This document shows, one piece after another, positions 2,428 to 27,412 of a stretch of DNA of 29,702 nucleotides (positions are counted from its first letter, which is position 1; each line of letters begins with the position of its first letter). The DNA is taken from positions 1 through 29,702 of the forward strand of contig JWZX01003239.1 of the NCBI GenBank assembly GCA_001275005.1. The letters are read 5' to 3'. This DNA comes from Chrysochromulina tobinii. Taxonomy: Eukaryota; Haptophyta; Prymnesiales; Chrysochromulinaceae. Under the pieces are notes generated by a model that did no database searches, was not told the origin of the DNA, and worked only from the letters and a program-made list of their open reading frames with translations. Made by a program: the position numbers and the translations under genes.

Positions 2428-4041
2428 TCAGTGCAGCCCCAACCCGTCGCCGTACAGGCTAATCAGGTCTCCCGGCGTCAGCACGTCCAGGTCGACCGAG
2501 AGCGTGTCGTCTTCGCCCTTACCAGGCACTTCGATGATCGAGAGCGTGTCGTCCCGAAGCGTCTCGTCTTCGACGTCTCGAAGCCCTTCGAGCATGCCTT
2601 CGAGGGACTCGCCGGAGGGTGTCCGTGCTGCCTTCTGGAGGGGCGGCGCTCGAGGCGGCGCGTGCTCCTCTCCAGAGGCTCCCCTCTCCAAAGGCTCCTC
2701 TCCAAAGGCTGCTGGCTCCTCTCTCGGCGCGCTCGAGATGGCGCTCGGCGGCATCAGTCTCGCGGGCCCCGTGTACCGCGCAGTCGTGAGCGCCATATGC
2801 CTGTGTTGGTGATTCTCCAGGACGAGCGCCGTCGTGAGCGCCATTGGGATCAACTCGATGGCAGCGGTCACCAGTCCCGTGTGCCGCGTGAGGAACACCA
2901 CCTGAAGCATGCACTCGAGATAGCCCTGGTCCTGTGCCTGGCGCACGCGCACCGGCTGGTCCAGCGAGCCGCGCACCTGAGGATGGAGGCGACCAGAGGT
3001 CGTCAGAGGTCATCAGAGGTCATCAGAGGTCATCAGAGGCATCGGAGGTCATCAGAGGTCATCAGAGGTCATCAGAGGGCATCAGAGGGCATCAAAGGTC
3101 AACGGTCCAGCGAGCGGCGCACCATCTCTCCGAGGTCATCAGTGGTCATCAGTGGTCATCAGATGACGGAGGCCATCAGCGAGCGGCGCACCATCTCTCC
3201 GCTTCGCCTCACTGCCTGTCCGAAGACGCTCGCTAGGAGCGGGTACACAACAGGCTGGTCGTCCGGGTGGATGAATAGGGTTAGAGGACTGGTTTTGTTC
3301 TGATCGTAGCAACGGCAGAGGGCTTCAACGCTGTACATGCCGTGCGCGAATCAGACGCACTCAGTGGCACTCAGTGGCACTCAGTGGCACTCGGTGGCAC
3401 TCAGTGTCACTCAGTGGCATTCACCTGCACACGCCGAGCTCGAAGGCCGCGTTGACAAAGAAGTGGTTGGAACCGCTCCGTGTGACCGTGCGCACAAAGC
3501 AGTAGCCGCGCGACGCGCTCACAACCTGAAGCATCTCGAGTGGGTGCGGACTCTCCTGTCGTCCTCCGTCTGAGACCCAGTCGTCATCCGGCATGGGCGG
3601 ATCGAGGTCGGTCAATCTGAACCCCCTGCTCTCACAGGTGCGCACGCACTCCATCATGAGGCTGTGCGCGTTGCGACGACGCGCAATCGCCGCAAAGTGC
3701 CGCAAGCAGAAGAGCTCCGCCTCTGTGGACTTGGCGGCACAGACCTCTCGCCAGAAGAGCGCAGTCACGTTGGGGCTCCCGCCAAAAGTCACTTGGCGCA
3801 CTGATAAGTCAAAGTTGTCCGGCGCTGTGCTGACCACGGCCGGCGCCATCGCGGTCTCCGTCTCGGCCCAGGTCGACGCCGTCTGCAACGAGAATTGTGC
3901 CATGATTCTCGGTTTCTTGGTTGGCGCCTCCTCGCAGCGCAAGCTGAGACGCTTGCAGCGCTCACACGTCTCTCCTGGCCAATAGTGACAGCGGACCTTG
4001 GAAGCCTTGCATGCCGTGCACACGTGCGTTGGGGGTGGCAT
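2428..4041 (-). CDS. Zn2Cys6 (fungal-type) DNA-binding protein with a PAS-like region, 3 exons
   Basis: Exons are 4041-3425, 3330-3192 and 2976-2428. Introns are 3331-3424 (phase 2) and 2977-3191 (phase 0), giving 434 residues. The ATG at 4041 is used because the in-frame extension upstream has no ATG. Six cysteines at residues 8, 11, 18, 26, 29 and 36 follow CX2CX6CX7CX2CX6C with a basic KASKVR between the second and third, the pattern of the fungal binuclear zinc cluster. About residues 170-310 read as a PAS-like domain (HFFVNAAFELGVC, LFIHPDD, then a strand-rich end), and this assembles only after both introns are removed. The C-terminal part is rich in Glu and Pro and contains short LEG/EE repeats. 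Zn2Cys6 plus PAS is the layout of fungal regulators such as ERT1/RDS2. A role as transcription regulator is inferred; target and ligand are unknown. It is divergent from the methyltransferase gene. Confidence 0.8.
3000..3180 (-). repeat. Intronic 10-bp tandem array in intron 2 of the Zn2Cys6 gene
   Basis: On the plus strand AGGTCATCAG is repeated with small variants (GGCATCAGAG, GTGGTCATCA). Read in the transcribed sense this is the CCTCTGATGA family. The array fills much of the 215-nt intron, which also contains a second copy of the donor region GGAGAGATGGTGCGCCGCTC (3105-3130 region and 3180-3200 region). Confidence 0.85.
3357..3425 (-). repeat. Short tandem repeat in intron 1 of the Zn2Cys6 gene
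   Basis: CACTCAGTGG is repeated about six times on the plus strand with single-base variants. It runs from inside the intron up to the donor site at 3424 and makes up most of the 94-nt intron. It differs from the CTGATGA arrays in the other introns. Confidence 0.85.
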
Positions 4042-4307
4042 ATGTGCTCGCAAAAGCTGCAAGGGGTCGTGAAGGGCGAGACCTCCGAGCGACCTCCGAG
4101 CAAGTTTGGTTGGGGGGGGATCACCGTGCTACTCGCATGTTGTGTACCGTCATATGTGTGAAGACTCTGCGTGCAGAATTTGAGAAGCTCATTACTTTTG
4201 GTGTCGCAAAAACTTGATGTGACAAAACTTGACAAAACTGACTTCGAAAGGCGCAACGCAGCGCACCCCTCTCGCCCACAGCCGCGCTTCGGCGGGGCGG
4301 TCGCAGC
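4042..4307. promoter_or_regulatory. Divergent promoter spacer between Zn2Cys6 and methyltransferase genes
   Basis: This spacer of 266 bases lies between two divergent start codons and must hold both promoters. It contains a G tract at 4112-4119, a duplicated GCGACCTCCGAGC-like element near 4083-4103, and a run of AAAACTTGATGTGACAAAAC repeats at 4208-4240. I recognise no TATA box. Confidence 0.4.
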
Positions 4308-7300
4308 ATGAACGACCATAATGCAAACGAGCTATGCGGCGTACTCTCTGGCGCGTACTGCTTCGCCGAGCTCGATGTGCGCATCACTGAAGCTCTCGAG
4401 CTCGCCGACTGCTGCAATCACATTGGCATCGACCTCGCCCAGCTCGCAGCGCCCTTAGATGCGGCCGCACGCGCTGCTGAGGCGGAGGAGGAGACAGCGC
4501 AGCCGCATTTGAAGCGCCAGCGCTCGGCCTCTGATGTGGGCGACGTGCTTCCGGGCGAGCGGCGCGCTGTGCTCGACGTGTCTGCCTTTGATCCGCACAC
4601 GGCGAGCGCCGTGCTTACCTGCGCAGGACGCTACTGCGCGCTCGTCAACCAGCCCGGGTTGGCGCTGGGCCACTTCCGTGCAGCGCTCGCGGCGTCGAGC
4701 ACGGGAGGGCATAGCCCGTCCACCTTCGGCCCGGCCGGCGTGCCTGAGCCCGAGGGCAGCAGCGAGGCCGAGGCGCACCTGGGGATGGTGCAGTCGGCGC
4801 TGCAGCTCGGGCTTCGTGAGCATGCCACCTCCCTCACGATGAGCTTCTGGCGGGGCGGCAGCGCGGGTGGCGTGGGCTCGTGCTCGCCCGCGTACATCCA
4901 TCTCGCCTTCCTGCTCGCCGCGCTCAGCGAAGCACTGCCCGCTCCACCACCTGACGCGCTCGCGCTCCTGCGCCGTCTCACTCCCTTATTAGGGACAGCG
5001 GCATGCTCAGCCGTTGAGAGTCTCGCGGCGCGCTGGCTGCCGAGCCAGGTGCCCACGGCGGCGCTCCCCCCTTCGGCCCGGGTGCCGCCCTCACCGCCCT
5101 CGCCTCTCACGCTCACGCCCGCGACGGCGCTCCATGCGCCCGCGACGGCGCTCCAGGCGCCCGCGACGGCGCTCCATGCGCCCGCGACGGCGCTCCAGGC
5201 GCCCGCGTACAGCGAGCCGCCGTACGAGAACGTCCTCGCCGAGCCTTTTGTGCAGGCGGCCCTCGCGGGCTCGCGCGCGTTTGGGTCTCGCTCACTCGAG
5301 ACGCTCGCCTGCGCCGCGCGCCGCCGGCTGCTCCTCCGGCTGCTCGGGCCGCTCGAGGGGCCGCTCGAGGGATCACTGGAGGGGATGGCTGAAGGGCGCG
5401 GGGGGGGAGGCGCGGCGGGCCGTCGCCTGCGGAATGCGTCGAGCGCCCACGACGGCGCGGGCTGCGAGGACGAGAGCCAGATGGCTGTGAACGAGAGCCA
5501 GATGGCTGTGAACGAGAGCCAGATGGCTGTGAACGAGAGCCAGATGGCTGTGAACGAGAGCCAGATGGCTGTGATGACCGATGTGATGGGGGACGACCTC
5601 GGCGAGAGCGATGACGAGCGGCAGCTCTTTTTGAGCGGCAGCAGCAGCGGCGCCAGGAACGGCGGCCGCGGCGCGCCGTGCCGCCTCGCCGCAGCATTTT
5701 GGGCAGGGGGCGCCGTCGTGGGCGGCGGCGGCGCCGGCGGCAGCAGCGAGGACGGCGGCGCGCGCCTGCAGCTCATCGAGGCCGCGGCCGCCGTGGCGTC
5801 GTGGGCGTCATTTGCGGACTTTTGCCTCGATGAAACGCCAGCCGAGGGCGCCGTCGTGGCACGCGCTTGCGCAATGCTTGAGGCAGGTCTCTCAGCGGGT
5901 AGCGCCGGTTGGCCCGTCTCGCATGCCCATGAGCTCTCGTGCCTCGTCGCTGCGGCGATGTACCAGGACCTCTCCAAAGTGCGCCAATGACCTCTGATGA
6001 CCCCTGATGACCTCGGAGGACCTCGGAGGACCTCAAATGACCTCTGATGACCCCTGATGACCTCTTCTCTACAAAGTGCGTCAATAACCTCTGATGACCC
6101 CTGATGACCTCTTCTCTCCAAAGTGGTCGAGCTCTGACTTCGTGACAGCCCCGTGCTGTGATGGCCGCTGATGGCCACGGATGACCTCCCTCATCGCATG
6201 CAGGTGCACAAGGGGGACGAACCCTCCCTCTGATTGCCTCTGAGTGCCTCTGATTGCATGCTGATGGCCTCCCTCATCGCATGCAGGTGCGAGCGGTCGA
6301 GCTCTGGCTTGATTGCCTCTGATTGCATGCTGATGGCCTCCCTCATCGCGTGCAGGTGCGAGCGGTCGAGCTCTGGCTTCGCGACAGCGACGTTGCGGCC
6401 GAGATGGGGCGGCGGCTGCAAGAGGCTGGGCTGACGCGCACTTGGTCCATGCTCCAAGAGCAGGTGCGCTGATTGCCTCTGATTGCATGTGATTGCGTCC
6501 CTCATCAGAAGGCCCTCCAAGTGCAGGTGCTCCTACCGTACGCACGCCAGCGTCGTGCCGAGCGGATCGCGGTGCTCACCCCGGTCCACTGCCTCGCGGT
6601 GCGTCACCTTCGACTACGTCGAACCCTTTGTCGAACACTTCCTATGACGAACCCTCACATCCTATGACGAACCCTCACATCATATGACGAACCCTCACAT
6701 TCTATGACGAACCCTCACATCCTTGACGAACCCTCACATCCTATGACGAACACATCCTATGACGAACCCTCACAACATATGACGAACCCTCACATCATAT
6801 GACGAACCCTCACATCCTATGACGAACCCTCACATCATATGACGCCCATCCAAAGTGGCACCTCTGAGTGCATGCATGTGACGGATTGATCTCCGCAGGT
6901 GCGTGACTTTTACAACGCGACGGTCTACCCCAAATGGCACGAGGCCGAGGTGCTCGGCTTCCGGAGCGCGCCCTCTTGATGACTTGATTGCATCTGATGA
7001 GCCATGATTGCGTCCCTACTTAGGTGTTCGGCATCCGGAGCGCCCCCTCGATCGCCGAGCGGTTACGTCGTCAGTTTCGTCACTTTCGCTGGCCGCATGG
7101 CGAGGACGCGCACCAGCATAGCATGCTCATCGCGGGCTGTGGCTCGGGCCACCAAGTCGCACAAGCGCTGCTCTCGTACGCTGATTGCATGCTGATTGCA
7201 TGCTGATTGCATGCTGATTGCATGCTGATTGCGGGCTGTAGTTCGGGCCACCAAGTCGCACAAGCGCTGCTCTCGTATGCTGATTGCATGCTGATTGCAT

Positions 7301-8631
7301 GCTGATTGCATGCTGATTGCATGCTGATTGCGGGCTGTAGTTCGGGCCACCAAGTCGCACAAGCGCTGCTCTCGTACGAGCACGTGTCCATCACGGCCAT
7401 TGGGATGATTGGCACTGATGAGCTTCTGATGAGCCTCTGATGGCGTCTGATGGCCTCCCTCATCAGGTACGACCACGTGTCCATCACAGCCATCGACTTG
7501 TCGCCTCTCACCCTCGCGTTCGCCCACCACAAGCTGCATGCGCGATGGCCCGAAGAGACCGCGCGCCGCGTGCGCTTCTGCGTCGCGGACGTGCTCGCGC
7601 TCACGACGGCGCGCCTTCCCCCCGTTGAGCTCGTCTGCTGCATTGGGATGCTGCATCACGTGCCACGGGTGGACGTGCCGCGCGCCCTCGAGAAGCTCGC
7701 GGGCGCGCTGCTCGAGGGCGGTGTGCTCCAGCTGGGGACCTACTCGACGCTCGGCATTGGCACATGGTACGTTGATTGCATGCTGATGGTATGTTGATTG
7801 CATGCTGATGGTATGTTGATTGCATGCTGGGGACCTACTCGACGCTCGGCATTGGCACATGGTGGCCTTGCATGCGACGAACCCTCCCTCTGATTGCCTC
7901 TGATTGCATGCTGATGGCCTCCCTCATCGCATGCAGGTGGCCTGGCATGCGACGGCTCCTCCATCGCCTCGCACCGGCGATCGTCGACGTGGCAGGCACG
8001 CTGCTTCGTCAGGTACGTTGATTGCATGCTGATGGCCTGCCTTGCATGCAAGTGCTCACCACAGCGCGCTCGATTGGCCTCGCTTCATCAGCCCGCGCCC
8101 CATGAGCTCCGAGAGCTCCGCGCGGCCCTCCTCGCCCTCGGCGCCCAACACGGCGTCCATGGGGACATACACGGCAGCAGCGGATCGGGTCCCCACAGCG
8201 GATCGGGTCCCCACAGTTTGGTGCTCGACGAGGCCGAGAGGCAGGCCATTGAGCACGTGCTCAGCGCTCCGGAGTTTTACACGGCCACCGGCTGCCGTGA
8301 CCTCCTGCTGCACCCGTGTGAATGCTCGTTCACAATGCTCGAGCTTCAAACGCTGCTCGAGGGCGCCGGGCTGGAGCTCGTGGGCGTGTGGTTTCAGAGC
8401 CTCGAGGCCGATCGAAAGGCGCGCGCCGCGTACGCGCAGAGCGCTCAATACGGCGCGCTCGGGGGTAGCCTCGCGCTGGCCGATGCGCCCGACTTGCAGA
8501 CGGACCTCGCGCGCTGGCATCGGCTTGAGGAGGAGGACCCTACCCTCTTTGGACGCATGCACGTCCTGTTTGCGCAGAAGCGGTCGCGAGGCGCCGCCGC
8601 CAACAGGACCTTTCGTCACAACGGGCCATGA
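4308..8631 (+). CDS. TPR-like protein with C-terminal class I SAM methyltransferase domain, 8 exons
   Basis: Exons are 4308-5978, 6356-6463, 6527-6598, 6899-6949, 7024-7175, 7467-7766, 7937-8012 and 8065-8631. All phases close, giving about 998 residues. The first 557 residues are Ala/Leu-rich helices resembling TPRs (AGRYCALVNQPGLALGHFRA) interrupted by low-complexity repeats. After the short exons comes DFYNATVYPKW, which resembles the PYPRW element preceding the methyltransferase domain in bacterial TPR-methyltransferases. SAM motif I is LIAGCGSGHQ, followed by ITAIDLSPL (acidic end of strand 2), VRFCVADVL and VELVCCIGMLHHV. The end (FYTATGCRDLLLHPCECSFT) matches the C-terminal region of the same bacterial family. 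The substrate is unknown. The last acceptor could instead be at 8052, adding four residues. The acceptor of exon 3 could be at 6508, adding six. Exon 7 is the least certain, as it has no family signature. The introns are unusual; see the findings. Confidence 0.8.
5121..5206 (+). repeat. In-frame 21-bp repeat (ATALHAP/ATALQAP)
   Basis: Four near-identical 21-bp units lie in exon 1 of the methyltransferase gene and encode alternating ATALHAP and ATALQAP. The Pro/Ala-rich linker they form probably lies between helical segments. Being in frame, copy-number change here would be tolerated. Confidence 0.9.
5472..5576 (+). repeat. In-frame 21-bp repeat (ESQMAVN x5)
   Basis: Five direct copies of a 21-bp unit encode ESQMAVN, the last ending in ESQMAVM. 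The copies are almost identical in DNA, so the expansion is recent. It precedes an acidic segment (DDLGESDDE). Confidence 0.93.
5979..6355 (+). repeat. Repeat-built intron 1 of the methyltransferase gene
   Basis: This 377-nt intron starts GTGCGCCAATGACC and ends TCGCGTGCAG. It contains CCTCTGATGA/CCCCTGATGA units and CCTCTGATTGC units. It also contains copies of the end of exon 1 (CTCTACAAAG, CTCTCCAAAG) and three partial copies of the start of exon 2 (GGTCGAGCTCTG followed by ACTTC, GCTT or the true exon). Confidence 0.85.
6643..6850 (+). repeat. 20-bp minisatellite in intron 3 of the methyltransferase gene
   Basis: About ten tandem copies of TATGACGAACCCTCACATCC occur with end variants (ATCA, ATTC, AACA) and one short copy. 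They fill most of the 300-nt intron 6599-6898. There are no unique spacers between the units, so this is not a CRISPR array. Confidence 0.95.
7176..7466 (+). repeat. Intron 5 of the methyltransferase gene, with repeated copies of the SAM-motif exon end
   Basis: Two blocks that copy the end of exon 5 (GCGGGCTGTAGTTCGGGCC through GCGCTGCTCTCGTA) lie inside the intron, at about 7225-7279 and 7329-7378. They are separated by tandem TGCTGATTGCA units. The second block runs straight into a copy of the start of exon 6 (TACGAGCACGTGTCCATCAC) with no intron between. Confidence 0.9.
7767..7936 (+). repeat. Intron 6 of the methyltransferase gene with embedded junction copy
   Basis: After GTACGTTGATTGCATGCTGATG-type units (three rounds), the intron contains a copy of the end of exon 6 from about 7828 to 7861. 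This is joined directly to a diverged copy of the start of exon 7 (GTGGCCTTGCATGCGACG), then CTGATTGC units and the acceptor TCGCATGCAG. Confidence 0.9.
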
Positions 8632-9400
8632 GTCCCGGTGTATGATGCGCATGTGTCCATGACTCCGCTCGGGCTCGCACGGTCGCGTCGCTCGCTCACT
8701 CCGTGCTCGGTGCTGCAGTGTATTACGTCCTTTGCGTTCGGCGTGACGCGTGTGAGTTGGGGCGGTTGGCTGTTGCTGTTCACGCCTCTTGTCATTGGCG
8801 TATCTAACAGCAAACAGGTGCTCTCGACGAAGAGTACTCCGAAGCCACCCATTGCGTTCGAAATTGTTCCCCGGCGCGCCCGCACCGCCTTCCCCGGCCG
8901 CGCCCGGGAGTCGCAGTCGGCGACGCGCACCCGACCCCGCTTCGCGCTTGACCCAGATCGAAGCGGCGAAAGGGGCACCAGCGGGGAGCCGGCAGCCGGG
9001 CAGACAGGCAGTCCTTCCGTTCTGGATTCACACACTATCCCCACCACCTGATTTTGAAGTCAGTGCCGGCCAACAGGGGTCATCAATATGCGGTATACTT
9101 TTGTCTTCCATTGTAACGGAGGATGGTGTAGAGTTGAATTGTTGATCTTGTTGCCGATGCCGTGCTGCGCTTGCATGCCGACCCATAACTTGCAATACAT
9201 ACACAAAGTTGACGCGGTGACCTGGCACCTTCACGTTGGGTTCACGGGGTGGCACTCTGCGAGAAGACATGAAAAAACCTAATTTGACGAAAACAGCAGA
9301 TTGCGACCCGAAAAAACCCTCCGACAATCTCACGCGGCAGATCTCGTACCTCGGACATCGACGGCTATCGGGGAAGCTTTTTCTTGGTTCTCTGATCATT
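8632..9400. other. Intergenic spacer upstream of the plastid-protein gene
   Basis: This spacer of 769 bases lies between two plus-strand genes. It should hold the 3' end of the methyltransferase gene and the promoter of the next gene. The stretch 8850-9020 is very GC-rich, and three overlapping frames stay open there, but none resembles a protein. No intron-type repeats occur here. Confidence 0.5.
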
Positions 9401-11257
9401 ATGCACTCCGCTCGGCAGCTCTCCGTCTCCTCGGTCGCGGGCCTCCTCATCGCGAATGCGGGGCCCGCGCTGGGCTTCTCGTCGTCGCCTCCGATGTGGG
9501 CCCCCGCATCAATGGCCCCCATGTCGAACCACCACCGCGCGTCTGCCCTCGCCATGAAGACGTACCCGGTGATTGATCTCGACGCCGAGTACATGACGTT
9601 GCAGAAGCAGATCGAGATCTTGCAGATCAAGTCGCGGATTCGGGAGCTGCAGGTGTCGCTCGACATCCTGCAGACGCCAACCGACGGTGCAGCCATCCCC
9701 ATCCCGCAGGAACTCGCCGACTCGATGGCCACGGCAACGCAGGACCTCGAGGCGGCGTTTGAAGCCGCCGATGCGGTGCCGGAGGAGGCCGTGGTCGCGA
9801 TGCAGTCGGCGGCGGACGCGGCGCCCGTGGATGCGGTGCCGGAGGAGGCCGTGGTCGCGATGCAGTCGGCGGCGGACGCGGCGCCCGTGGATGCCGTGCA
9901 GGCCGCGAGCGACGCCGCGAGCGACGCGGCAGCCGCAATGATGCAGAGCAACGCCGATGCGGCTGCCGACGCATTGCAGGGGGCCACGGAAGCAGCGGCC
10001 GCCGCGCTCTCAGCAGTCAGCGAGGCAGCAGCGCAGGCGGTGCAGAGCTCGGCGGACAATGGGGTGCCATTGGCGGAGATGAGCGCCATCTTTAGCTTGG
10101 TGTTGGCTGGAGTCCTCTTATCCGACTTTGGTCGTGAGAGCGTCTTCAGCGCGGTCAAGATGACGCCCCCCGACGCGACCAAGATTGACGACGCCAAGTT
10201 CAACTTTGCGACGACTGCAGGAGCCGTCACGATGCCCGCGACGGCACCCTCGTCAGACGCCGAGTACGAAGCCTACTTGGCCGCTGTGGGCGCCAACGGC
10301 GGCATGCGGGACCGCTCGGCACCGAGCATCCTCTTCGGCGGTGCCGCCAACCTCCTCGGCGCCCCGCTGGGCTGGATATACGGTGGGCCCACAGCACTCA
10401 CCTCTGGGCGCCAGTCCACGATCGCATCCGTCCAGGATGCGGTGCTCGGCTTTGTGGCTGCCTACGGAGCGTCGGAGCTGGCCTTTTACGCCGCCATCGC
10501 GCTCGTGTGCGTCGTCGGCTTCCCGGGCGAGTTCTTCAACCTGGCGAGCGACCCCGCGCTGGCTCAAGGGGGGCTGGACGCGTACGACGCGCTGACCGCC
10601 GCCGAGGCCTTCTTGCCACTGCGCGCGGCGCTCGCTCTCACGACGACAGGCTGGGCGCACGAAGCGGTCGTCATGCCGCTCGAGAAGTGGGCAACGCAGC
10701 TCAACTATGCTGAGCCTCGCGTCGAGAACGACTTCGTGAACGGCGACACATCGCGCTCGGCGGTCGTGCGCACGGTCGCCGCGATGCCGCTCTCGTACAT
10801 CGGCTGGGAGGCGGCGTTCTGGGCGTCCGTAGCCGCGGTGGGCCTGGTAGGCTACCCGAAAGAGTTCTTTGGGATCGAGGCCTCGGAGGAGATCAAGAGC
10901 TTGAGCGTGCAGGCGTTCGAGTTCCTCTCGGCTGCCCGAACAGATCCGCAGACGCGCCTCGGGCTGGCGCTCCTCAGTGCACCGTGGGTGAGCGAGACCA
11001 TCTTGGATAACGCGATCAAGTACATTAAGGCGCTCACGTACAGTGCGGAAGAGACGGTCGCGGAGGCCGAGGCGCTGGCTGCTTCTGGCGCCGTGCCTGA
11101 GCCCGTCTTCACCTCCGGCCGCGTTGTCTCGACCCTCACCGGCAGCGAGGATCCCAAGTCCGCTTCCGTGCCCGTGCCCGTGGCCGTCGGCGGGGGGCCC
11201 TTGCCCGTCAGCTACGAGGAGTACCTCGACTACCGCCGAGCCATCGCGCTCCGTTGA
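9401..11257 (+). CDS. Plastid-type protein of unknown function with duplicated membrane module
   Basis: This is a single exon of 618 residues if the ATG at 9401 is used. That start gives a hydrophobic signal segment (VAGLLIANAGPALGF) followed by a Ser/Met/Pro-rich stretch to about residue 55. The layout matches the bipartite signal-plus-transit leader of plastids of secondary origin, including the Phe just after the Ala-rich cleavage region. The frame is open further upstream, so a longer start cannot be excluded. Residues about 60-95 form a likely coiled coil (LQKQIEILQIKSRIRELQ). An Ala-rich helical part with a 20-residue tandem duplication follows. The C-terminal half contains two related modules of roughly 100 residues, one with FYAAIALVCVVGFPGEFFN and one with FWASVAAVGLVGYPKEFFG, each with a hydrophobic segment. 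I do not recognise the family. A thylakoid or envelope membrane location is inferred. Confidence 0.78.
   Translation: MHSARQLSVSSVAGLLIANAGPALGFSSSPPMWAPASMAPMSNHHRASALAMKTYPVIDLDAEYMTLQKQIEILQIKSRIRELQVSLDILQTPTDGAAIPIPQELADSMATATQDLEAAFEAADAVPEEAVVAMQSAADAAPVDAVPEEAVVAMQSAADAAPVDAVQAASDAASDAAAAMMQSNADAAADALQGATEAAAAALSAVSEAAAQAVQSSADNGVPLAEMSAIFSLVLAGVLLSDFGRESVFSAVKMTPPDATKIDDAKFNFATTAGAVTMPATAPSSDAEYEAYLAAVGANGGMRDRSAPSILFGGAANLLGAPLGWIYGGPTALTSGRQSTIASVQDAVLGFVAAYGASELAFYAAIALVCVVGFPGEFFNLASDPALAQGGLDAYDALTAAEAFLPLRAALALTTTGWAHEAVVMPLEKWATQLNYAEPRVENDFVNGDTSRSAVVRTVAAMPLSYIGWEAAFWASVAAVGLVGYPKEFFGIEASEEIKSLSVQAFEFLSAARTDPQTRLGLALLSAPWVSETILDNAIKYIKALTYSAEETVAEAEALAASGAVPEPVFTSGRVVSTLTGSEDPKSASVPVPVAVGGGPLPVSYEEYLDYRRAIALR
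9768..9897 (+). repeat. In-frame 60-bp tandem duplication
   Basis: Two consecutive 60-bp units, nearly identical at DNA level, encode DAVPEEAVVAMQSAADAAPV twice in the plastid-protein gene. The high identity points to a recent duplication within an alanine-rich amphipathic helix. Confidence 0.95.
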
Positions 11258-11292
11258 GAAGACGTTTGATCGCGCTCCGTTGAGAAGACGTT
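11243..11292 (+). repeat. 26-bp period duplication across the stop codon
   Basis: A 24-base block containing CGCTCCGTTGAGAAGACGTT occurs twice with a 26-base period. The first copy includes the TGA stop of the plastid-protein gene at 11255-11257. The second lies in the presumed 3' UTR. Confidence 0.93.
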
Positions 11293-12645
11293 CAGATAGC
11301 GATTGAGCTGGCCATTACACATCATTGATCATGGAGGCGGCAAGGCACGGTGCCGCGCTGGTGGCATGGGCTGCGGTAGCATGGGCTCTAGCAAGGGCTG
11401 TGGGAATTTTGGAGGCGCGGCAGGATAAATGGAGCAAGAATCTGGCTAGGATGAGGCAGAGGCGCTCTCTCATACGGCGAGGTTGACAAGGAGCACGAGA
11501 CCATAGCTGGCAAGGTCGCCGAGACGGCGCCCGGGGCGGGGGCACATTGATCACATGAGCGGCAATAGGCCGGCGTGGCTCATGCCGGCGGGGAGTAGGC
11601 CTACTTGTGCATGCAGTCGAGAAGTCCTCGGCGCTCTCGATCGATGCAGTGACACATGCAGTCCACGAAGGCGGTTCACGCAGAGATGATGGGGGCAAAG
11701 ATGATGATGCATGAGGTACAGCAGCGTGGCGAGGCGTGCAGCGTGGTCCGATGGAGAAGCGGCCTGGCGAGAGTGGGCACTGGTTTGTGCTCCAAGTTTG
11801 GGTCAAGCAAAATGTACTTGACAATCGAATATTCATGGATCATGCATATTCTCATGGAAGGGATGGTTCACGGTCATGCATTTCAGTGCGAATCATCAGA
11901 GGGCCATGCAGAGCACTATAAATCCTTTATTCTATATCATCCGTTATCTGGGTTAGTTATTTAATTGGATCCAAAGTACGTCGTAACGTGAAACGAACAG
12001 CGGTCAGCGCAATGCGGACGCGCAATGCAAATCATATTCATAATCAACATTTTCATTGTCAACAACTACAGTCAACACGGTCCGATTCCCTGCACCCCCT
12101 CTGCACGCGCAAGGTCCAAGGAGCTCTTCTCCGTCGTCCGGTCTCAACATCTCTGACCGGGCACCCCCGGCGCGTCGCATCTCGCATGTGGCGGCGCGTG
12201 TGAGAGAATAAAGAGAAAGGAAAACAGATCAGCAATTCAGCATCAGTTGAAAGGTTACGGAGGTTTTATGGCCCGCTCCGTCCTCGGTCGAGCTCGAGGC
12301 TGATTTAAACGGCGGCGTGGGCCGTGGTATAAGGCAGAAGCCGAGCGGGATTAAGGGAACGCTGTTAACGGTTAACTATCACTTGCATATCTTGTTCGGG
12401 GTTCGAACTGCTAATCGAACTGTGTCCACATGGGACATGCGCCCCCGCGTCACTCACTGTCACTCCTTAAAATATGGGCGTATCATTGGTGGATCTTGGA
12501 ACTCAAAGTCGAGCTGCAAAGTAGAAAGTTAACGTTACTAGATTACTCTTCCGGCGCCACCCTCCGCGCACACGAGACCCATCAGCCGACGGAGCCATCA
12601 CGCCTCGATTTCACCGAGGCAGCCCGCGAGGCGCGAGCAGCATTT
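11258..12645. other. Intergenic spacer between convergent genes
   Basis: These 1.39 kb separate the 3' ends of the plastid-protein gene and the kinase gene. Much of it, especially 11800-12540, is richer in A and T than the genes. I find no coding region, no intron-type repeat array and no confident RNA gene. A short TATTTAATTGGATCCA at about 11957 matches the end of intron 2 of the HMG-CoA reductase gene. Confidence 0.5.
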
Positions 12646-15907: not shown

Positions 15908-18900
15908 TCACGCAGTATACGGATCTAGGGCCGCCGGCTCGATGGCAGAGCGAGAGAGCGTCGCGCGCTTCAGTTCACGCTGACGAGAGAGCTCGCGCTC
16001 GGTGTGCCCTTTCTCGGCGGCGGCGCTCCTCCGCCCGAGAAAAGACATGTCGAATGTACCGGTACATTTCTTGAGGAACGAGCCGTCGCTCGGCTGCTCT
16101 GTGGAGGAGCCAGCCTTGTTTCGATTCTCAAACTCGGCGAGCAGGCCGTTGGCCGCGAGGCCACGTTTGAGGTGCATCATGATCGAGGCCTTGGTGAACT
16201 TGTCCGAGGTCGATCCGGTGACGCGCTTCATCTTTTTAATTGAGTCGAGATATTTGGGGTGCATATGCATCAGCTTGGCCATGATCTGATCCTCATGCAC
16301 CACGCCCGTGAGCCGCTGCAAGAGAGCGAGGAGCACCTCGAGGAAGTGCACAGTTCCGTCTCGGTCGGGCGCATCGAGGTCGACGAGGATGCCCTCCATT
16401 TGCTCGAGATTGGGCGGCACCTGTCGTGGCTTCGTCAAGCCGTAGAAGGAGCCCTCGCCCACTTCCAGCTGCACTCCCACGAGCGGCGGCTTGCAGGTGT
16501 ACCTGACGAGGGAGGCAAGCAGCGCTCATCAGTGGCCAAGCACTCAGGAGCGGCGGCATGCATGCATGCATACAGCAGCAGCCCCAGGTCGATGGGGCGC
16601 TTGCAAGCACTCAGGAGCGGCGGCATGCATGCATGCATACAGCAGCAGCCCCAGGTCGATGGTGCGCATGTACGACGTGTTCTCCCGGTCGAACTCGAGC
16701 CATTTGCGCTGAAAAGACTCGATGTCCTCGAACTTGATCGAGATACCCTCCTCGTAATTCGAAGTTGCGTACGAGTCTTGCACGATGGCCACGAACATGG
16801 CAATGAGCACCCAAGCCACGAATGCGATGTAGGCGATGAAGAAGACGGCAACTGCCGAGTCAGGTGGCCGGGTCTCGATGCGCGCGACGTGCGGGTTGTT
16901 CAGCGCGTCGGCGAGCATCGCACCCCAGGCGTCGCCCGTTGCCATGCGGAAGAGGGCCGAAAAGGCGCGAAACGCAGTCTCGAAGTTGGCGTGGCGCGAC
17001 AGCCCGTCCCCTTCGTGGTCGTAGATGATGGTGCCGAGCAGGACCATCCCAAAGTGCGCGTACGAGAAGGTGAGGATGAAGATCCACGCGGAGGTGTAGA
17101 GGATGGAGGGGACCGCAAAGATGATGGTACGCAGTAGTTTGAGTAGCGAGGGCGACATCCCCGCGAGGCGCACCTGTGGGGAGAGAGAGGCAATCAGAGG
17201 TCATCAGAGGTCATCAGAGGTCATCAGAAGAGATCAGAGGACATCAGAGGCCATCCCCGCGAGACGCACGATGCGGATCGCCCGGAAGCAGCGCAGCCAG
17301 CGCATCGCCGGATCGTCCTTCAAATTGTATCCGTCGAGCACCGCAAAGGCGATGATGGTGACGAAGGAGAAAATGACCGAGACCACGGCTAGCACGAAGT
17401 CCAGCCGGTTCCACGGATTCCTCCAATACTCGATGAAGGTGAGTGCGCCGATGCGGACCTAATGAGGGGAGCCATCAACGAGTCATCAGAGGCAATCACA
17501 GAGAGACTATCAGAGGCACTCAAAGACCATCAGGGTGCTGGGAGACCATCAGGGTGCTGGGAGACCACACGCGCACCATCGCCTCGATCGCGAACAGTGC
17601 GACGAAGCCGTAGTCCAGCAGCTCATAGATCTGGAGCACGGTGCGATTGATCGGGTCGGAATAGAGCGTGAGCGCGACCACGTTGAGGCAGATGCACACG
17701 CTCACGGTCCGGTCGAACGCCTTGCCATGGAACCGCGCCGTATCGGGCGCGTTCACAGGCCTGCCGAGCTTCTCTTCATCGTGAATGAGTCGGAAGCACA
17801 CGCGCCGATACGGCGCGGTGGGCGGCGGCTCCCTGTGGGGAGAGGGTGGGGCGCCGTGGTGAGCACTTGCATGCAAGGCATCGGTCTCGCTGTAGGGTCC
17901 GCACAGGTGGCTCCTCTTCTCTGGCTGGAGGCGAAGGATGAGTCGCTGCGTCTTGAGCCACGTCATCTGATCGTTGGTGAGCCGCGCCGAGCCGTCGTAG
18001 ATTCGCTTGATATTCTCAAGCTCGGAGATGATGATGGCCGTGAAGACGCTCACGGACAGCCAGACGCCGAAGACGATGAACAGGATGAAGTAGAGAGCCG
18101 GGATGAAGGTGGATGCCTCGCGGGCGGGCTGCGTCTCGACTGCAATGTAGTCGCCGGTAAGGTAGAGAATGTTGGCCCATCCGTCGAGGGTAGAGATCTG
18201 ATGAGTGAGGCAATCGGAGGACATGAGCGGCACTCACACTGATGAGTGAGGCAATCGGAGGACATGAGCGGCACTCACACTGATGAGTGAGGCAATCGGA
18301 GGACATGAGGGGCACTCACACAGGCAATCATGAAGGACCAGCCGTCGCCAGCGAGAACCTGCATGCAATGAGGACGGCAATCAGGGAGGCAATCATGAAG
18401 GACCAGCCGTCGCCAGCGAGTACCTGGAAGAGTGCAGGCAATGAGGGAGGCAATCAGCGAGTGCCTGGAAGAGGGCGAGGAGCGCCATGGGCAGCGAGTC
18501 GAAGTTCGGGAAAGAGCGCGTCCATAGAAGCTCAGCCCCGTCGGCGGCGATGAACACGCTGCACTCGCGCCGGGCCCCGGTCCACTGGCAGCCGCATTGT
18601 GTCGAGTTGGTCTCGCCGGGCACAACGAGCGCGGGCGGCGGCAGAGGCCAGCGCGCGTACCGGCACTTGGTCGCGTCCGTGTAAAGGACGGAACCCTCCC
18701 CCCACACACCTTCCCCCACGCCGCAGCCGGGAATGCCGAGGGTCGCGTTGAGGTGGGCACATTGACTCGTGCCTCCTCCGAACAGCTCGACGCCTACGAG
18801 CGCAAAGATGAGCCAGACGGGTCAGGTGATCGCCTGATGAGAGAGGCCATCCGACGCAATCAGATGCACTCAGATGCACTCAGACCTATGAGCGCAAAGA

Positions 18901-21900
18901 TGAGCCAGCCGGCCACGAGCAAGATAAGCGCGATGAGCACGTTCGGCAACGAGCGAGCGATGGACTCAGAGATGTGTTTGAGCTCGTTGAATCTAGAGAA
19001 GAGCATTAAGGCCCGCAAGGAGGCAAGGGCTCCGAAGATGCGCTGGTTGAAAGTGATCACATCGGTGTTATTCAGCGGGTTGAAGAGGGCCAACAGCAAG
19101 CAGATGAGATCGAGCATGTACCTGGGGCACCACGCAATCAATGGGGTCATCAGTGAGGTCATCAGTGTCATCAAGGCCAACAGCAAGCAGGCCACATCGA
19201 GCATGTACCACGGCTGCCTGAAGAATGCCAAGGGGCCCTGTGTCATCATCTTGATGACGAGCCCGCCGCACGTCAATAGCATGAAGGTCACGTCTAGTCC
19301 GGACCGCACCTGTAATATTAGGGAGTATCACCATATTAGGGAAGGACGGCCATATTAGGGAGGGCGTCTAATCCGGAGCGAGGGCGCACCGATGGGGGAG
19401 TGAGGGCCGGGGAAGAAAGTGAGGGCGCGCCGCTGAGCAGGCGCCAGTGCCTGATCATGCCATCGATCTCCGAGGTGATCGCGAGCGAGGACGAGATGAT
19501 GAGCGTCACCTGATGAGGGAGGCAATCAAGGGCGTCCTCAAGTATCATCAGCGGCCATCATTGGATCGAGAAGATGAGCATCACCTGATGAGGGAGGCAA
19601 TCAAGGGCGTCCTCAAGTATCAGCGGCCATCAGAGGATCGAGAAGACGAGCGTCACCTCGAAGCACCAGAACGTGTTCGAGAACACTATCCGCTGCAGAT
19701 TGCGTGCGCGCTCCTCGCCCAGCCCGTCCTGTCCGAATTTCCCCAGTGGCGGCAGCCGGTCGAGGTAGACGGTGCGCAGCCAATCGCCCGCCGCACGCAC
19801 GCGCACCATGAGCAAGGTATACATGCGCCCGGCTAGAGGGCCGCTCTTGCGTTGATGACGCCGGAGCTCGATGTTCGTCTTCAACTGTTTGCCCAATGCG
19901 TCGCTTCGGTCTTTCTGAGGGTCGAGATCGTCGTTACGCTTGATGGACATGAACATGAGGAACTCATGCTGCGAGATGAGGTCGTCTACCGTCGAAGACT
20001 TGTCCAGTACCTGCACTCGGAGACGACCAGAGATGGGCGATCAGAGGCGATCAGAGGCGATCAGAGAGGCGATCAGAGGCAATCAGAGGCGATCAGAGGC
20101 CATCAGAGGCGATCAGAGGCGATCAGAGAGGCGATCAGAGGCGATCAGACGCACTCCGAGGGGCAATCAGAGGGGCAATCAGAGGGGCAATCAGAGGGGC
20201 CATCAGAGGGGCCATCAAAGGCCATCAGAGGCACTCCGAGAGGCAATGACGCACCTCCCACGTGGCCTCATTCTTGGGCTCTTCTCCGAGCTCGGCGAGG
20301 AGGCGATACACTTGGCTGCAGGTGATGTACCCGTCACCGTCCAAATCCGCGCGCTGGAAGGTATCCTTAAAGTACGCGATCTCCCACACGTTGAGTGATC
20401 CATAATCGGAAGCGTGCATGCGCATGCGCGAGCGACGCAACTTGCGCTGAATGCGCTCCCCTTTGCACCTGTGGGGAACATCGGGCGCCGTGGTAAGCAC
20501 ATGCATGCTGAGGGTCGGCGCACATGCTCTCCCCTTTGCACCTGCGCATCCACTTCTTCTTCTGGGCAGACAGGTAGCGCCTCTGCTCCGTTCGAACCCA
20601 GCCCCGATCACTGATCTGGACTCGCACAAAGGGGGGCAGCAGCCGAAAGAGGCTGCGGGCCCAAGGGCCGAATGGCTCATCGCCCTTCACGCCGTGTGGA
20701 AGCTTTGCCCAATGCGGTAGGCGAGGGGGGGCAGCGCCGGATGCCACCACGGCTTCGTGCGCTTCGATGACGCCGCGGTCGTCGGCATCGCCGTCATCGG
20801 CATCGCCGTCTTCCTCAATGTTGCGCTTGGGCTCACCATCGTCCAAACTGTTGCGCGAGGGCGCGCGCTCGTCCAACCGAGCTTGTAACGAATCTCTCTG
20901 TTTCAAGTTCTCTTCCTTCGGAGCCACCCAGGTGCCTCCCACGTCCATCCGTCCGGCGGCAGCATCCAGAGTCGGGGATCGCTGTCCACGTGCCAGAGGG
21001 GACCACCTACCAGAGCCAGAGGATGGGGAGGGCGAACGCGTGCGCCGCGCCTCGAGGTCGGCGAGCTTCCGCGCCTCTTCTTTAGTCTCCTTGCGCAGGC
21101 GCGCCTTGCGATTCAGCGGGGGTGGCCTGGCTGGAGCCTTCGTCGAGTCCCTTTTGGGAGGTGGCTGGCCGGAGTCGTCGGGTCCCTTGATCCGTAAGAT
21201 CTGTGTGTCTGTGTTTTGGGCATATGATCCGGAGGAGTGCGAGAAGCGCGCCGCCTTGACATCGGCGTCGCGCTGTGCTTTGAGTGCGTGGCGATCCTTA
21301 CGCTGCTCCTCCTCCTCCTGTGCCAGCCTGGCGGCAGTCTCTTGGCTCACTTTGGAGGCGATCTGCTTTGCCATCGACGAGAACGTAGAGAGCAGGATGG
21401 AAAGGAACATATTGACCATCACAAAGTTGCCCGAGATGACTACCGCTGGGAAGAAGATGAAGGCGAGGGGGCCCGAGACGAGATATGTGTCCCACATCAC
21501 CCGGCTCCACACGTCCTGCGTGACCGTCTGGAAGACGCTCACGATCGAGATGAGCAGGAAGTCGAAGTGATGACGTGGCTTGAGCGCGCATGAATCCGTG
21601 TGCAGCTGGGTGGAGTTGGCACCATCGGCGTATGGAAGACACCGACCGCCGGCATACACGTCGTCGTACATGCCCGAGTACAGGTGCATGCCAAGGATGG
21701 CGATGAGGAAGATCCATATGACGAGCGCCACCAACATCCAAGCGACCGCGACGAGCGACGCGTAAATTTGGTCGAGGAGCGCGGTCGTGCCACTCAACTC
21801 TGAGAGCGAATAAAGTAATTTGTGGAGGCGCAGCAGCCGAAAGGACTTGAGCGACGAGAGGACTTGATTCTCCAACTCGAGCCCGGTGAACCACGAAACC

Positions 21901-24900: not shown

Positions 24901-25320
24901 GGCCGCCGCCAACGATGCCGACGCCGACCCCGACGCCGACGCGCCACCGTTGTCGCTTCTCGCACCTGCCGTGCCACTGCTGCTGCGGCGGCGACGCGGT
25001 CGGCCTTCGACACCATCGCCGTCCTGCCGCTTGCGCCGCCGCTTACCGCCGCCATCCCCGCCATCTCCAGCATGCTGCTGCTGCCGCCGATGACGCCGTC
25101 CCTGCTCAGGGGAGCTCGTGGTGCCACTGCGAGTGCGGCTTCCGTTTCCGCGGCCGCCGGCATCGACGCTCCGGCCTCGCCCACTATCCACGCTGCTGCT
25201 CCAACGGACCTCTGCGCTGCGGCTGCGCATCTCGCCTCCGCCCGTGGTGCGCCCACCCTCGATGCTGCGGCTGTGGTCGCCGTCACGAGAAGCACCTTCT
25301 TCCTTCACGAAGGCGTCCAT
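15908..25320 (-). CDS. Four-domain voltage-gated cation channel with three EF-hand regions, 15 exons
   Basis: Exons are 25320-23708, 23636-23318, 23231-20542, 20468-20255, 20010-19657, 19509-19390, 19309-19209, 19121-18886, 18793-18465, 18358-18320, 18197-17905, 17832-17577, 17458-17270, 17173-16641 and 16502-15908. All phases close, giving 2,626 residues. The N-terminus is Ser/Arg/Gly-rich with an EF-hand pair (DTDGDGFLDVAE at 201, DTDGNHLLDRHE at 237). Domain I S4 is RILRVLRPLRVLESIPGLR and its filter is CGVDW (about 776-780). The I-II linker has a second EF pair (DKNGDGLLTEEE at 936, DKDGSGEISFNE at 972). The domain II filter is TQDVW (1215). The II-III linker has one clear EF loop (DLDGDGYITCSQ at 1582) and a degenerate partner. 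Domain III contains AGDGW (1995) and TLDGW (2008). The domain IV S4 is RCFRAIRIVRLAG and its filter is TGDAW (2330). It is the Cav/Nav/NALCN architecture in the plasma or another membrane. Acidic filters suggest Ca2+ permeability, but selectivity is inferred. The gating charges of domains II and III are sparse. Confidence 0.87.
17184..17250 (-). repeat. CTGATGA-type array in channel intron 13
   Basis: In the transcribed sense CCTCTGATGA is repeated about four times in the 96-nt intron 17174-17269. The intron begins with a copy of the exon 14 start (GTGCGTCTCGCGGGGATG versus GTGCGCCTCGCGGGGATG). Confidence 0.88.
18198..18319 (-). repeat. 41-bp triplicate repeat in channel intron 10
   Basis: Almost the whole 122-nt intron consists of three copies of a unit of about 41 bases that starts TGTGAGTGCCGCTCATG and ends TTGCCTCACTCATCAG in the transcribed sense. 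Each copy therefore carries a GTGAGT donor-like start and a TCATCAG acceptor-like end. Confidence 0.9.
20020..20254 (-). repeat. Long CTGATCGC/CTGATTGC array in channel intron 4
   Basis: On the plus strand GAGGCGATCA, GAGGCAATCA and GAGGGGCAATCA units repeat more than fifteen times and fill nearly all of the 244-nt intron 20011-20254. In the transcribed sense these are CCTCTGATCGC and CCTCTGATTGC, the same theme as in the other genes. Confidence 0.92.
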
Positions 25321-25457
25321 TGATTTGGCCGTTCGCGCACGAGACGCGTCGTCTCGACCAAAAGTGAACTTCGTGCAGTAAATGTTGTCCAACCAATTTG
25401 AATTCACATCTTGGCATCTTCATCACGTCGGCGTGCGCGACAGGATAGGACACCGGG
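25321..25457. promoter_or_regulatory. Short divergent spacer between channel and HMG-CoA reductase genes
   Basis: Only 137 bases separate the two chosen start codons, so the promoters are shared or overlap. The channel frame stays open to about 25407 without an ATG, so its leader may lie there. No core element was recognised. Confidence 0.4.
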
Positions 25458-27412
25458 ATGTCCTCTCCAGACGACGCGCCTACGCCCGCTCCCAGGCCTC
25501 CCTCAGAGACGGAGTCAGCGCCCGCCGCCCCGACGTCCAAGGTTGATTTCACGACGCTCTCGGACGAGGAGCTTGCCGCTCTCGTCGTCGCCGGCACGGT
25601 GGCGCCGCACAGTCTCGAGGCAGACCTTGGGAACTGCGCGCGCGCCGTGCGAGTGCGGCGGGCCTGGCTCGAGCGCTCGATGGGCGTGGGGGTCGGCACG
25701 CTGCCTCACGATGTGCTCGACTGCGAGGCCTTTTACAGCAGCGTGAAAGGCGCATGCGCGGAGATGGTCGTTGGCTTCGTGCCGCTGCCTGTGGGCGTGG
25801 CCGGTCCGCTGCTGCTCAACGGGAAGTCGTACCAGGTGCCCATGGCGACGGTCGAGGGCACGCTGATCGCCTCCACACGGCGCGGCTGCAAGGCCATCAC
25901 CGAGTCGGGCGGCGCCCAGGCGGCCGTGCTGCAGCAGGGCATGACGCGCGCACCGGTGCTGCAGTTTCCGAGCGCGATGCGGGCCGTGGCGTTCAAGCAG
26001 TGGCTAGAGGATCCGGTGCATTTCGAGGAGGCGAAGGCGCAGTTCGAGTCGACCACGCGCTTCGGCAAGCTCCTCTCGGTCAAGGTGACCGTCGCCGGCC
26101 GCTTTGCCTACGCTCGCTTCATGTGTGCCACTGGCGACGCGATGGGAATGAACATGGTCTCCAAGGTGCAGCGAGTCTCCGGATCGCATTTGTATTGCCT
26201 CGGAGTGCTGCTGAGTGCTGCTGAGCGCCCCGGAGTGCTGCTGAGTGCCTCGGAGTGCCTCGGAGTGCTGATGAGTGCTGATGCGTGCCTCTGGATGCCT
26301 CTGGATGCCTTCTGGATGCCTCTGGATGCTTATGAGAGTGCTGCTCGACATCGCCGTCCTGTCCTAGGGAGTGAACGCGGTACTCGAGCACCTCGCAGCC
26401 ACCGACTTCCCCGACTCGGAGGCACTCGGCCTGAGCGGCAACCTATGCTGCGATAAGAAGCCCGCCGCGATTAATTGGATCCAGGTGCGTGGTTGCACTT
26501 GATTGCACTTGATTGCACTTGATTGCTCATGATTGCTCTTGATGGCCTCTGATAGCCGCCGCTATTTAATTGGATCCAGGGACGAGGCTGCTCTGTGGTG
26601 GTCGAAGCGACCATCTCCGGCGCCATCGTCTCAAAGGTCCTCAAGACGACCGTTGCGGCCGTGTGCGAGCTCAACCTAGCCAAGAACCTGGTCGGCTCGG
26701 CGATGGCGGGCATGTCCGCGGGCGGCTTCAACGCACACGCGGCCAATCTCGTCACCGCGGTCTTCCTCGCCTGCGGCCAGGACCCCGCTCAGAATGTCGA
26801 GTCGTCCAACTGCATCACGCAGCTCACGCCCGTCAACGGCGGCGCGGACCTGCACATCTCGTGCACGATGCCATCGATTGAGGTGGGCACCTTGATTGCA
26901 TCGGATGGCCTCTGACGGCCTCCCTCCTCAGGTGGGCACCTTGATTGCATCGGATGGCCTCTGACGCCCTCCCTCCTCAGGTGGGCACTGTCGGCGGAGG
27001 AACCCACCTCGCGGCGCAGAAGGCGTGTCTGAACTTGCTCGGGGTCGCGGGCTCTGCCGACGCCTCGCCGGGTGCGCATGCACGCCAGCGACCTCTGATG
27101 ACCTCTGATGACCTCTGATGACCTCTGATGACCTCTAATCGCGTCCCTCATCAGGTGCGCATGCACGCCAGCGACCTCTGATGACCTCTGATGACCTCTG
27201 ATGACCTCTGATGACCTCTGATGACCTCTGATGACCTCTGATGACCTCTGATGACCTCTGATGACCTCTAATTGCGTCCCTCATCAGGTGCGCATGCACG
27301 CCAGCTGGCCATGGTCGTCGCGGCCACCGTCATGGCAGGAGAACTCTCCCTCCTTTCCGCCCTCTCGGCTGGGCATCTCGTTAAGGCCCACATGGCCCTC
27401 AACCGAAAGTGA
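25458..27412 (+). CDS. HMGR: Class I 3-hydroxy-3-methylglutaryl-CoA reductase, 5 exons
   Basis: Exons are 25458-26165, 26368-26484, 26580-26882, 26981-27071 and 27288-27412, giving 447 residues with every phase closing. The enzyme reduces HMG-CoA to mevalonate with two NADPH, the committed step of the cytosolic mevalonate route to sterols and isoprenoids. Catalytic residues are all visible: Glu133 ([13 protein letters not shown]), Lys266 ([10 protein letters not shown]), Asp227 (TGDAMGMNM) and His441 ([12 protein letters not shown]). [22 protein letters not shown] and [13 protein letters not shown] are family signatures. The N-terminus before the catalytic domain is only about 100 residues and has no hydrophobic segment, so the membrane anchor typical of animal, plant and fungal enzymes is missing. 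The protein would be soluble, or targeted by its Pro/Ala/Ser-rich start. The coding frame ends at TGA 27410-27412. Confidence 0.95.
26166..26367 (+). repeat. Degenerate GAGTGCTGCT/GGATGCCTCT repeats in HMGR intron 1
   Basis: The 202-nt intron is mostly overlapping units of GAGTGCTGCT, GAGTGCCTCG and TGGATGCCTC. These are related in length to, but different in sequence from, the CTGATGA units in the other introns. Confidence 0.8.
26883..26980 (+). repeat. HMGR intron 3: two tandem 49-bp GT...AG units
   Basis: The intron is exactly two 49-base units, 26883-26931 and 26932-26980. They differ at about one base. Each begins GTGGGCACCTTGATTGC and ends CCTCCCTCCTCAG. The downstream exon starts GTGGGCACTG, so each unit begins with a copy of the exon start. 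Confidence 0.95.
27072..27287 (+). repeat. HMGR intron 4: two tandem intron units with CCTCTGATGA arrays
   Basis: Unit 1 (27072-27154, 83 nt) and unit 2 (27155-27287, 133 nt) both begin GTGCGCATGCACGCCAGC and end GCGTCCCTCATCAG. Unit 1 has four CCTCTGATGA copies and unit 2 has nine, which accounts exactly for the 50-base difference. The true exon that follows also begins with those 18 bases. Confidence 0.96.

Follow-up and report, generated by a model that had tools for sequence, protein, structure and literature searches.

Many introns in a 29,702-nt contig of the haptophyte Chrysochromulina tobinii (JWZX01003239.1, C2080 in our numbering; hereafter the window) begin with a copy of the start of the exon that follows them. 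Our analysis suggests that these introns probably arose from introner-type mobile elements, each bringing no more than the 3' half of an intron and duplicating 8-48 nt of the target exon on insertion. The introns of the window are a local view of a genome-wide family.

We searched the genome assembly (53.2 Mb in 2,253 contigs) and predicted genes with a home-made gene finder, trained on the window genes, in the window and 20 further stretches (227 kb). Nine of these stretches were picked for holding the repeat and eleven (L018-L028, 110 kb) without regard to it. This gave 159 predicted introns, whose AG end is imposed by the finder and hence is no evidence on its own; for the window we also kept a curated list of 29 introns, some with boundaries set by hand. 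Copies were scored as +1 for a match and -2 for a mismatch, with a cut-off of at least 8 for introns and at least 10 for the motif-site and compact-element tests described below.

The intron start matched the downstream exon start in 24 of the 159 introns, against a shuffled mean of 0.25 (maximum 2 in 200 shuffles), with start copies of 8-48 nt across the introns examined. An earlier, sequence-only reading of the window had claimed that its introns open with a copy of the next exon and had proposed comparison with shuffled pairs as the check; the claim is borne out at a rate far above the shuffled one. All five examples that it named were found, two in the gene for HMGR (GTGCGCATGCACGCCAGC, 18/18 identical, in intron 4; GTGGGCAC, 8/8, in intron 3), two in an ion-channel-type gene (GTGCAAAGGGGAGAGCAT and GTGCGYCTCGCGGGGATG, each 17/18) and one in a methyltransferase-like gene (6950-7023, 26 nt with three mismatches). 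Its tally of 30 introns, 20 of them followed by an exon starting with GT, becomes 29 and 17 in the curated list. Within that list 12 introns had an exon-start copy scoring at least 8 (a count made with no shuffled control), six of them at the donor, five deeper inside the intron and one lying 27 nt upstream of the chosen donor. The reading had also stressed that there were so many cases in one 30-kb segment; the cases are real, yet the phenomenon is not limited to the window. In the eleven stretches picked without regard to the repeat, only 4 of 40 introns scored at least 8 (one start copy and three end copies), and therefore such copies are more frequent in the window and at the repeat-picked loci than on average.

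The copies can be detected without gene models. The 3'-end motif CCYTCMTCAG was found at 76 sites, with GT next in 57. We dropped 26 sites at which the exon start contained array words, and 26 of the 50 usable sites had an upstream copy of the exon start (shuffled mean 1.53, maximum 3). Six of these 26 best copies stood directly after CATCAG and are tandem units. A copy of exon positions +15 to +60 also scored at least 10 at 15 of the 50 sites, as expected where copies exceed 25 nt. When 4-mers at the boundaries of 339 unfiltered repeat pairs were counted, AG|GT did not stand out (D role 30/339, tied tenth to twelfth of 256; A role 25/339, outside the 14 listed), because such pairs are mostly array units. 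In a survey of 92 repeat events, 53 fell into no class and formed the largest group (array-to-array or exon-repeat pairs for the most part, judged by eye), and of six further events with antisense-type inserts none was by eye a clear antisense array within a gene.

An insert that is not a copy of the target lies between the two copies, and inserts of two families are found repeatedly, at unrelated loci. In family 1, short CTGAT units (CTGATTGC, CTGATGGC, CTGATGAC), which we take to match the branch-point consensus CURAY, form an array that often ends with CCCTCATCAG. One of its 15-mers, CTCCCTCATCAGGTG, has 759 exact sites in the genome, and its reversed pattern has none. Family 2 is a compact element: its core, GCATGCAAGTGCTCACCACGGCGC, is followed by 11-27 nt of pyrimidine-rich tail and, in most copies, the end CCCCACAG. 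Its 24-nt core occurs 1,991 times in the genome within two mismatches, with no match for the reversed control.

For family 2 we fetched 40 exact copies (L033-L072), chosen blind to their surroundings, and examined the intron context of these 40 only. An acceptor-like end stood at the expected place in 37, one of the other three stopping at a contig end, and the exon after the element began with GT or GC in 33 of the 37. A copy of the exon start lay upstream in 23 of the 37, compared with a shuffled mean of 0.02 (maximum 1). These target copies measure 14-48 nt (median 30); 10 of the 23 are identical and divergence across all 23 is 5.1%. From the intron start onward, these introns consist of a target copy, up to 36 nt of filler, the core, the tail and a final CACAG. 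They have a precise 3' junction, with CCCCACAG in 20 of the 23 introns, and a ragged 5' junction. At L069 the filler contains two more partial target copies, and the filler of L047 resembles a partial copy. Filler was also compared with neighbouring sequence, as decayed target: for the 10 fillers of at least 8 nt, the score against the exon after the target was 5.0 (permuted 4.39) and against the upstream exon 5.35 (permuted 5.42). Only the alignment with the target itself exceeded all permutations (mean 5.55 versus 4.18), largely through L069. No terminal inverted repeats of at least 6 nt were found in any of the 23 introns. In one of them (L041) the match extends 9 nt leftward, with another element upstream as a tandem unit. 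Two loci, L043 and L053 (contigs C101 and C235), carry an identical family-2 intron with identical flanks, from a recent duplication or from redundant contigs.

In a large share of cases the target cannot have supplied the acceptor AG. There is no AG before the first copy in 16 of the 24 start-copy introns, and therefore the acceptor AG must have arrived with the insert. The same is seen in 9 of the 23 compact introns, while the other 14 are ambiguous, as their AG can be assigned to the target or to the element.

The direction of change was examined by searching the joined flanks of 11 family-2 introns against the genome. Intron-less paralogues were found in three places for two of the 11 sites; the other nine gave no usable paralogue. 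At the first site the intron lies just 3' of an HCxxGxSRS motif, from which we take the gene to be dual-specificity-phosphatase-like, and the paralogues are on C2204 (85%) and C2168 (83%). The second site, in a presumably EF-hand-like gene, has a paralogue on C2040 (71%). The core is absent from all three, and a single open frame runs across the site. The DNA alignment covers the whole target for C2204 and C2040; for C2168 it ends 10 nt past the junction and the frame continues. Therefore, the introns at these two sites were gained, together with the duplication. HMGR introns 3 and 4 also break into conserved protein: the junction of intron 3 (EV|GTVGGG) is gap-free in 6/6 homologues, and that of intron 4 has no extra residues in the six, one of which (P0024) is without one residue beside the junction. 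No second HMGR copy for a comparison with and without introns was found in the genome. Among named sources, the spliced HMGR protein is nearest to a record of the prymnesiophyte haptophyte Haptolina brevifila (taxid 156173, 77%), followed by Emiliania huxleyi (71%), which agrees with a prymnesiophyte host.

The inserts are scarce outside sense introns. As placed by the gene finder, 257 sites of CTGATTGC in the 227 kb fall into sense introns (247), sense exons (4) and intergenic DNA (6), with none antisense in genes, and all 31 sites of CCTCCCTCATCAG are in sense introns. The 227 kb comprises 20.6 kb of introns and 75 kb of intergenic DNA. Random insertion followed by purging of harmful copies should leave survivors that are mostly intergenic; either the insertion mechanism or the way it selects targets therefore seems linked to sense exons.

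We propose that the element consists of a branch-point-like motif, a pyrimidine tract and an AG. On entering an exon, it would cause 8-48 nt of target 3' of the element to be duplicated, giving the order target copy, element, target copy. Splicing would then run from the GT (or GC) at the first base of copy 1 to the AG at the last base of the element, and the messenger would therefore be unchanged. The duplicated target would provide the 5' splice site plus the spacer up to the branch point. As in introners, many near-identical copies stand at unrelated positions, new introns are found at previously intron-less sites, and, judging from sequence, one splice site comes from the element and the other from the target. 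Splicing itself, present-day mobility and the chemistry of insertion we infer from these features. The chemistry that we hold most likely starts from a nick in the target. This would serve as primer for copying the element, present as RNA or as a single strand, from its precise 3' end, and a second, distant nick with gap filling would set the variable duplication length. Variable target duplications, a precise 3' end and a ragged or truncated 5' end, all of which we observed, are the hallmark of target-primed LINE- or SINE-like (long or short interspersed nuclear element) retroposition. The genome has 26 matches to reverse-transcriptase domains, 22 of them above the family cut-off, which permits a retroposition step and does not prove it.

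Several observations weigh against this proposal. All splice sites are based on reading frames, HMGR homologues and paralogues, and the acceptor test of the 40 compact copies was lenient and had no null. Fourteen of the 37 compact copies had no clear target copy; some of these have short repeats or repeats broken by indels, and others may be old. The array inserts have no fixed 5' end and therefore a common array element cannot be delimited, and in the compact element the distance from core to AG varies (11-27 nt). The sense and intergenic counts depend partly on the home-made gene finder, a bias of which can inflate the sense share, but of the 40 compact copies, chosen blind to their surroundings, just three have no acceptor-like end. 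Further, 6 of 131 sites of CTGATGGC are antisense (all in exons), as are 5 of 132 sites of CTGATGAC (two in exons, three in introns), and an array insert at L028 2671-2754, with a perfect 26-bp repeat, is not in a predicted gene. Finally, the distance from donor to core at family-2 loci is 40 +- 7 nt despite the variable lengths of target copy and filler, which are inversely correlated (r = -0.73; none of 10,000 permutations was as tight). A simple model of variable duplication without selection on intron geometry does not predict this constancy. Its plain reading is selection on the spacing between 5' splice site and branch point.

Array inserts without splice ends were observed between long repeats at three places. 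Two of them, in the window (3108-3201, minus strand, and 7176-7466, plus strand), span an existing donor, and the third is the L028 insert just mentioned; the insertion process thus seems also to act where no new intron arises. At three other loci (L011 7594-7713, L017 5293-5455 and L021 4082-4226) we saw target copies without a GT start, or several tandem element-target units. Where the target copy has no GT start, the protein seems to retain, after splicing, a few residues duplicated in frame.

The strongest rival, possible but on the doubtful side, is the repair of staggered double-strand breaks, in which filling-in of the overhangs makes the repeat, a fragment of a pre-existing intron is captured and only spliceable captures survive, with no dedicated element. 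Variable repeat length would follow from it, as would the fillers with slipped extra target copies (clear at L069, weaker at L047) and the inserts without splice ends between perfect 25- and 26-bp repeats (window 3108-3201; L028 2671-2754). Daphnia offers a precedent, with repeats of 4-12 bp (PMC4202315). Some local copying also speaks for it: array 12-mers were shared within a gene at 0.053 versus a permuted mean of 0.024 (maximum 0.036 of 300; tandem units included), and the local 10 kb was the best source for 10 of 43 inserts, where about two are expected by rank. For most inserts, however, other contigs were at least as good a source as the neighbourhood (mean rank 0.40; 0.45 at array-rich loci), and a same-gene neighbouring intron as the main source, through local template switching, is not supported. 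Moreover, captured filler should vary in origin and orientation, whereas the same two families in sense orientation prevail, and about 2,000 copies of one core favour a dedicated element. Two points tip the balance slightly from such repair to target-primed retroposition, namely the roughly 2,000 occurrences of one core and the sense bias.

A more specific form of spread is RNA-templated and coupled to transcription. Here an expressed gene would be nicked in its transcribed strand, and an excised intron RNA would have its 3' end copied at that nick. We regard this as rather unlikely. If true, it would explain the sense-genic bias, the 3' junction exactly at the intron end, the ragged 5' junction with slipped target copies and the long variable duplications. 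In that case the 40-nt spacing of donor and core would reflect a physical ruler as well as selection on intron size, and retroposition of spliceosomal intron RNA would be a bulk source of new introns.

It is improbable that the introns stem from ordinary cut-and-paste DNA-transposon introners with target-site duplications, as in other algae. A design in which element and target each give one splice site is known from introners (PMC9860276), but the duplications here are variable (14-48 nt, median 30, in 23/37) and not of a fixed 3-9 bp, terminal inverted repeats of at least 6 nt are absent (0/23), and the 5' end is not fixed. The variable length would agree with this reading only if a transposase that makes such staggers existed. 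The sequence-only reading was right that variable length speaks against a fixed target-site duplication; a variable-length target duplication fits.

The mechanism which that reading had itself put forward was tandem duplication alone, of exon segments that include AG|GT, copy 1 supplying the donor and copy 2 the acceptor. Intron gain, the direct repeat of variable length and the donor role of copy 1 stand. The acceptor role of copy 2 fails where the target has no AG (16/24 start-copy and 9/23 compact introns). Under that model the whole intron should be exon copy, its end repeating the upstream exon end and nothing lying between the copies. Yet no copy covered 80% of its intron among the 24 start-copy introns, a non-copy insert was present in all of these and in the 23 compact introns, upstream exon ends were not repeated by intron ends (the longest exact run at the acceptor side of the 24 was 4 nt), and the two insert families recur at unrelated loci. 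In its favour are the variable direct repeats, an AG before copy 1 in 14/23 compact and 8/24 start-copy introns, and an AG|GT inside the repeat in 6 of the 92 surveyed events (class M, a label of our script), two of which, in L012, resemble exon repeats. We rejected tandem duplication as very improbable; for the 24 start-copy introns it is contradicted by the inserts and, in 16 of them, by the missing AG. Chance or a gene-finder artefact, by which GT-rich starts and low-complexity introns would give spurious matches, has a negligible probability, since repetitive arrays, target copies that the finder sometimes placed in exons and a boundary census that did not favour AG|GT are outweighed by the shuffled controls, the gene-model-free test, the array-free compact element and the paralogues.

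A mirror class, in which the intron end repeats the upstream exon end, was found in 8 of the 159 predicted introns (score at least 8, copies of 12-23 nt; shuffled mean 0.12, maximum 2) and in eight cases of the repeat-event survey (15-32 nt). None of the 159 introns carried both types of copy, and the downstream exon began with GT in 0/8. Here the insert would bring the 5' splice site and the duplicated target would provide the 3' splice site.

Gozashti et al. (2022, PMC9860276) described introners with duplications of 3-9 bp, among them elements with a single splice site. Those of Symbiodinium microadriaticum have 4-bp duplications and terminal inverted repeats, whereas the duplications here are 14-48 nt and variable, inverted repeats are lacking and the duplicate would also provide the spacer to the branch point. 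The nearest named host group is Chrysochromulina sp. TARA_PON_109_MAG_00232, whose family 5 brings a 5' splice site and makes use of an existing 3' one, as in our mirror class, but with 4-bp duplications rather than copies of 12-32 nt. In the intron gains of ATP2A1 and of potato RdRp (PMC4974935), the 5' splice site likewise comes from a direct repeat at the start of the intron, and in potato RdRp the acceptor half comes from intron sequence; here the acceptor half is an element repeated at about 2,000 places and not the gene's own neighbouring intron. Daphnia neo-introns (PMC4202315) share repeats of variable length between an exon and the opposite intron end, and later internal insertions; they differ in repeats of 4-12 bp and in that no recurrent insert family is described in the part available. 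Rogers and Bendich (2025, PMC11782384) reported repeats shared by the intron start with the downstream exon, or conversely by the intron end with the upstream exon, in 213 introns of diverse classes analysed manually (4-30 bp, mean 11.4 bp), whereas we describe one genome with longer repeats, defined inserts and shuffled controls. Long variable duplications were not mentioned in the titles and abstract beginnings listed by searches on introners and on haptophyte intron gain, and within that scope the family appears to be an undescribed introner variant.

Few cases of bulk intron gain show source, target and scar together, and here there are about 2,000 near-identical copies, with readable duplications in 23 of 37. 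This opens to direct test the insertion chemistry, the spacing between 5' splice site and branch point, and a minimal parts list of an intron (branch point and 3' splice site, the host providing the remainder). It further suggests that introners can exist outside the class of cut-and-paste DNA transposons with short duplications, and surveys seeking short duplications may misjudge such families.

Table 1. Introns of the window and their parts (positions in the window)
Feature	Position	Strand	Details
HMGR intron 4, target copy 1 at intron start, GTGCGCATGCACGCCAGC	27072..27089	+	18/18 versus exon start 27288-27305; score 18
HMGR intron 4, insert	27090..27287	+	CTGATGACCT array ending CCCTCATCAG
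HMGR target copy 2 = exon start	27288..27305	+	conserved protein PGAHARQLA
HMGR intron 3	26883..26980	+	begins with GTGGGCAC = next exon start; insert ends with CTCCCTCCTCAG; unit present twice
HMGR intron 2, mirror class	26485..26579	+	intron end = upstream exon end TTAATTGGATCCAG; insert begins with GTGCG; acceptor score 14
Methyltransferase-like gene, intron	6950..7023	+	26-nt copy of next exon start, then CTGAT-type insert ending with CTTAG
Methyltransferase-like gene, intron	7176..7466	+	target copy 7374-7400 (27 nt) of exon 7467-7493; scores 21, 43
Intron with internal copy	7767..7936	+	7862-7879 copies next exon start GTGGCCTKGCATGCGACG
Ion-channel-type gene, intron	17174..17269	-	target copy 17252-17269 of exon start 17156-17173, 17/18
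Channel-type gene, intron	19510..19656	-	target copy 19639-19656 of exon start 19492-19509, 16/18
Channel-type gene, intron with compact element	20469..20541	-	target copy 20524-20541 of exon start 20451-20468, 17/18
Intron with exact compact core GCATGCAAGTGCTCACCACGGCGC	17833..17904	-	
Intron combining CTGAT-type array and compact core (1 mismatch)	8013..8091	+	
Intron with two insertions	2977..3191	-	target copy 3104-3122 of exon start 2958-2976

Two boundaries in Table 1 were set by hand: the gene finder had chosen 26555 for HMGR intron 2, and it had put the donor of the compact-element intron of the channel-type gene 3' of the target copy. The core of the latter has two mismatches and its tail is CCCCACAG. 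In HMGR intron 4 the insert occurs as tandem repeats, and another target copy lies near 27155-27172. In the longer of the two methyltransferase-like gene introns there are array insertions too, with a long duplicate spanning the donor, and in our reading this intron may represent two layered insertions. The second insertion of the intron at 2977..3191 lies between perfect 25-bp repeats (3108-3132 and 3177-3201) that span the donor.

A third type of intron array, of GACGAACCC units, occupies 6642-6840 of the window. An IMG/VR contig listed as viral (L073) has an array of the GACGAACCC type and a compact core beside a long repeated stretch, and is probably DNA of a related alga or a carrier of its introns. 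Matches to GCCTCCCTCATCAGGT were found in nine IMG/VR contigs and, for a sequence of this length, are quite plausibly due to chance. An Rfam scan of the window gave 0 matches. The window also has an intron-free open reading frame of 617 residues with internal repeats (9401-11251, plus strand), which had no Pfam match at E <= 0.001, and an in-frame 21-bp tandem repeat (GAGAGCCAGATGGCTGTGAAC) in the first exon of the methyltransferase-like gene (5470-5575, plus strand).

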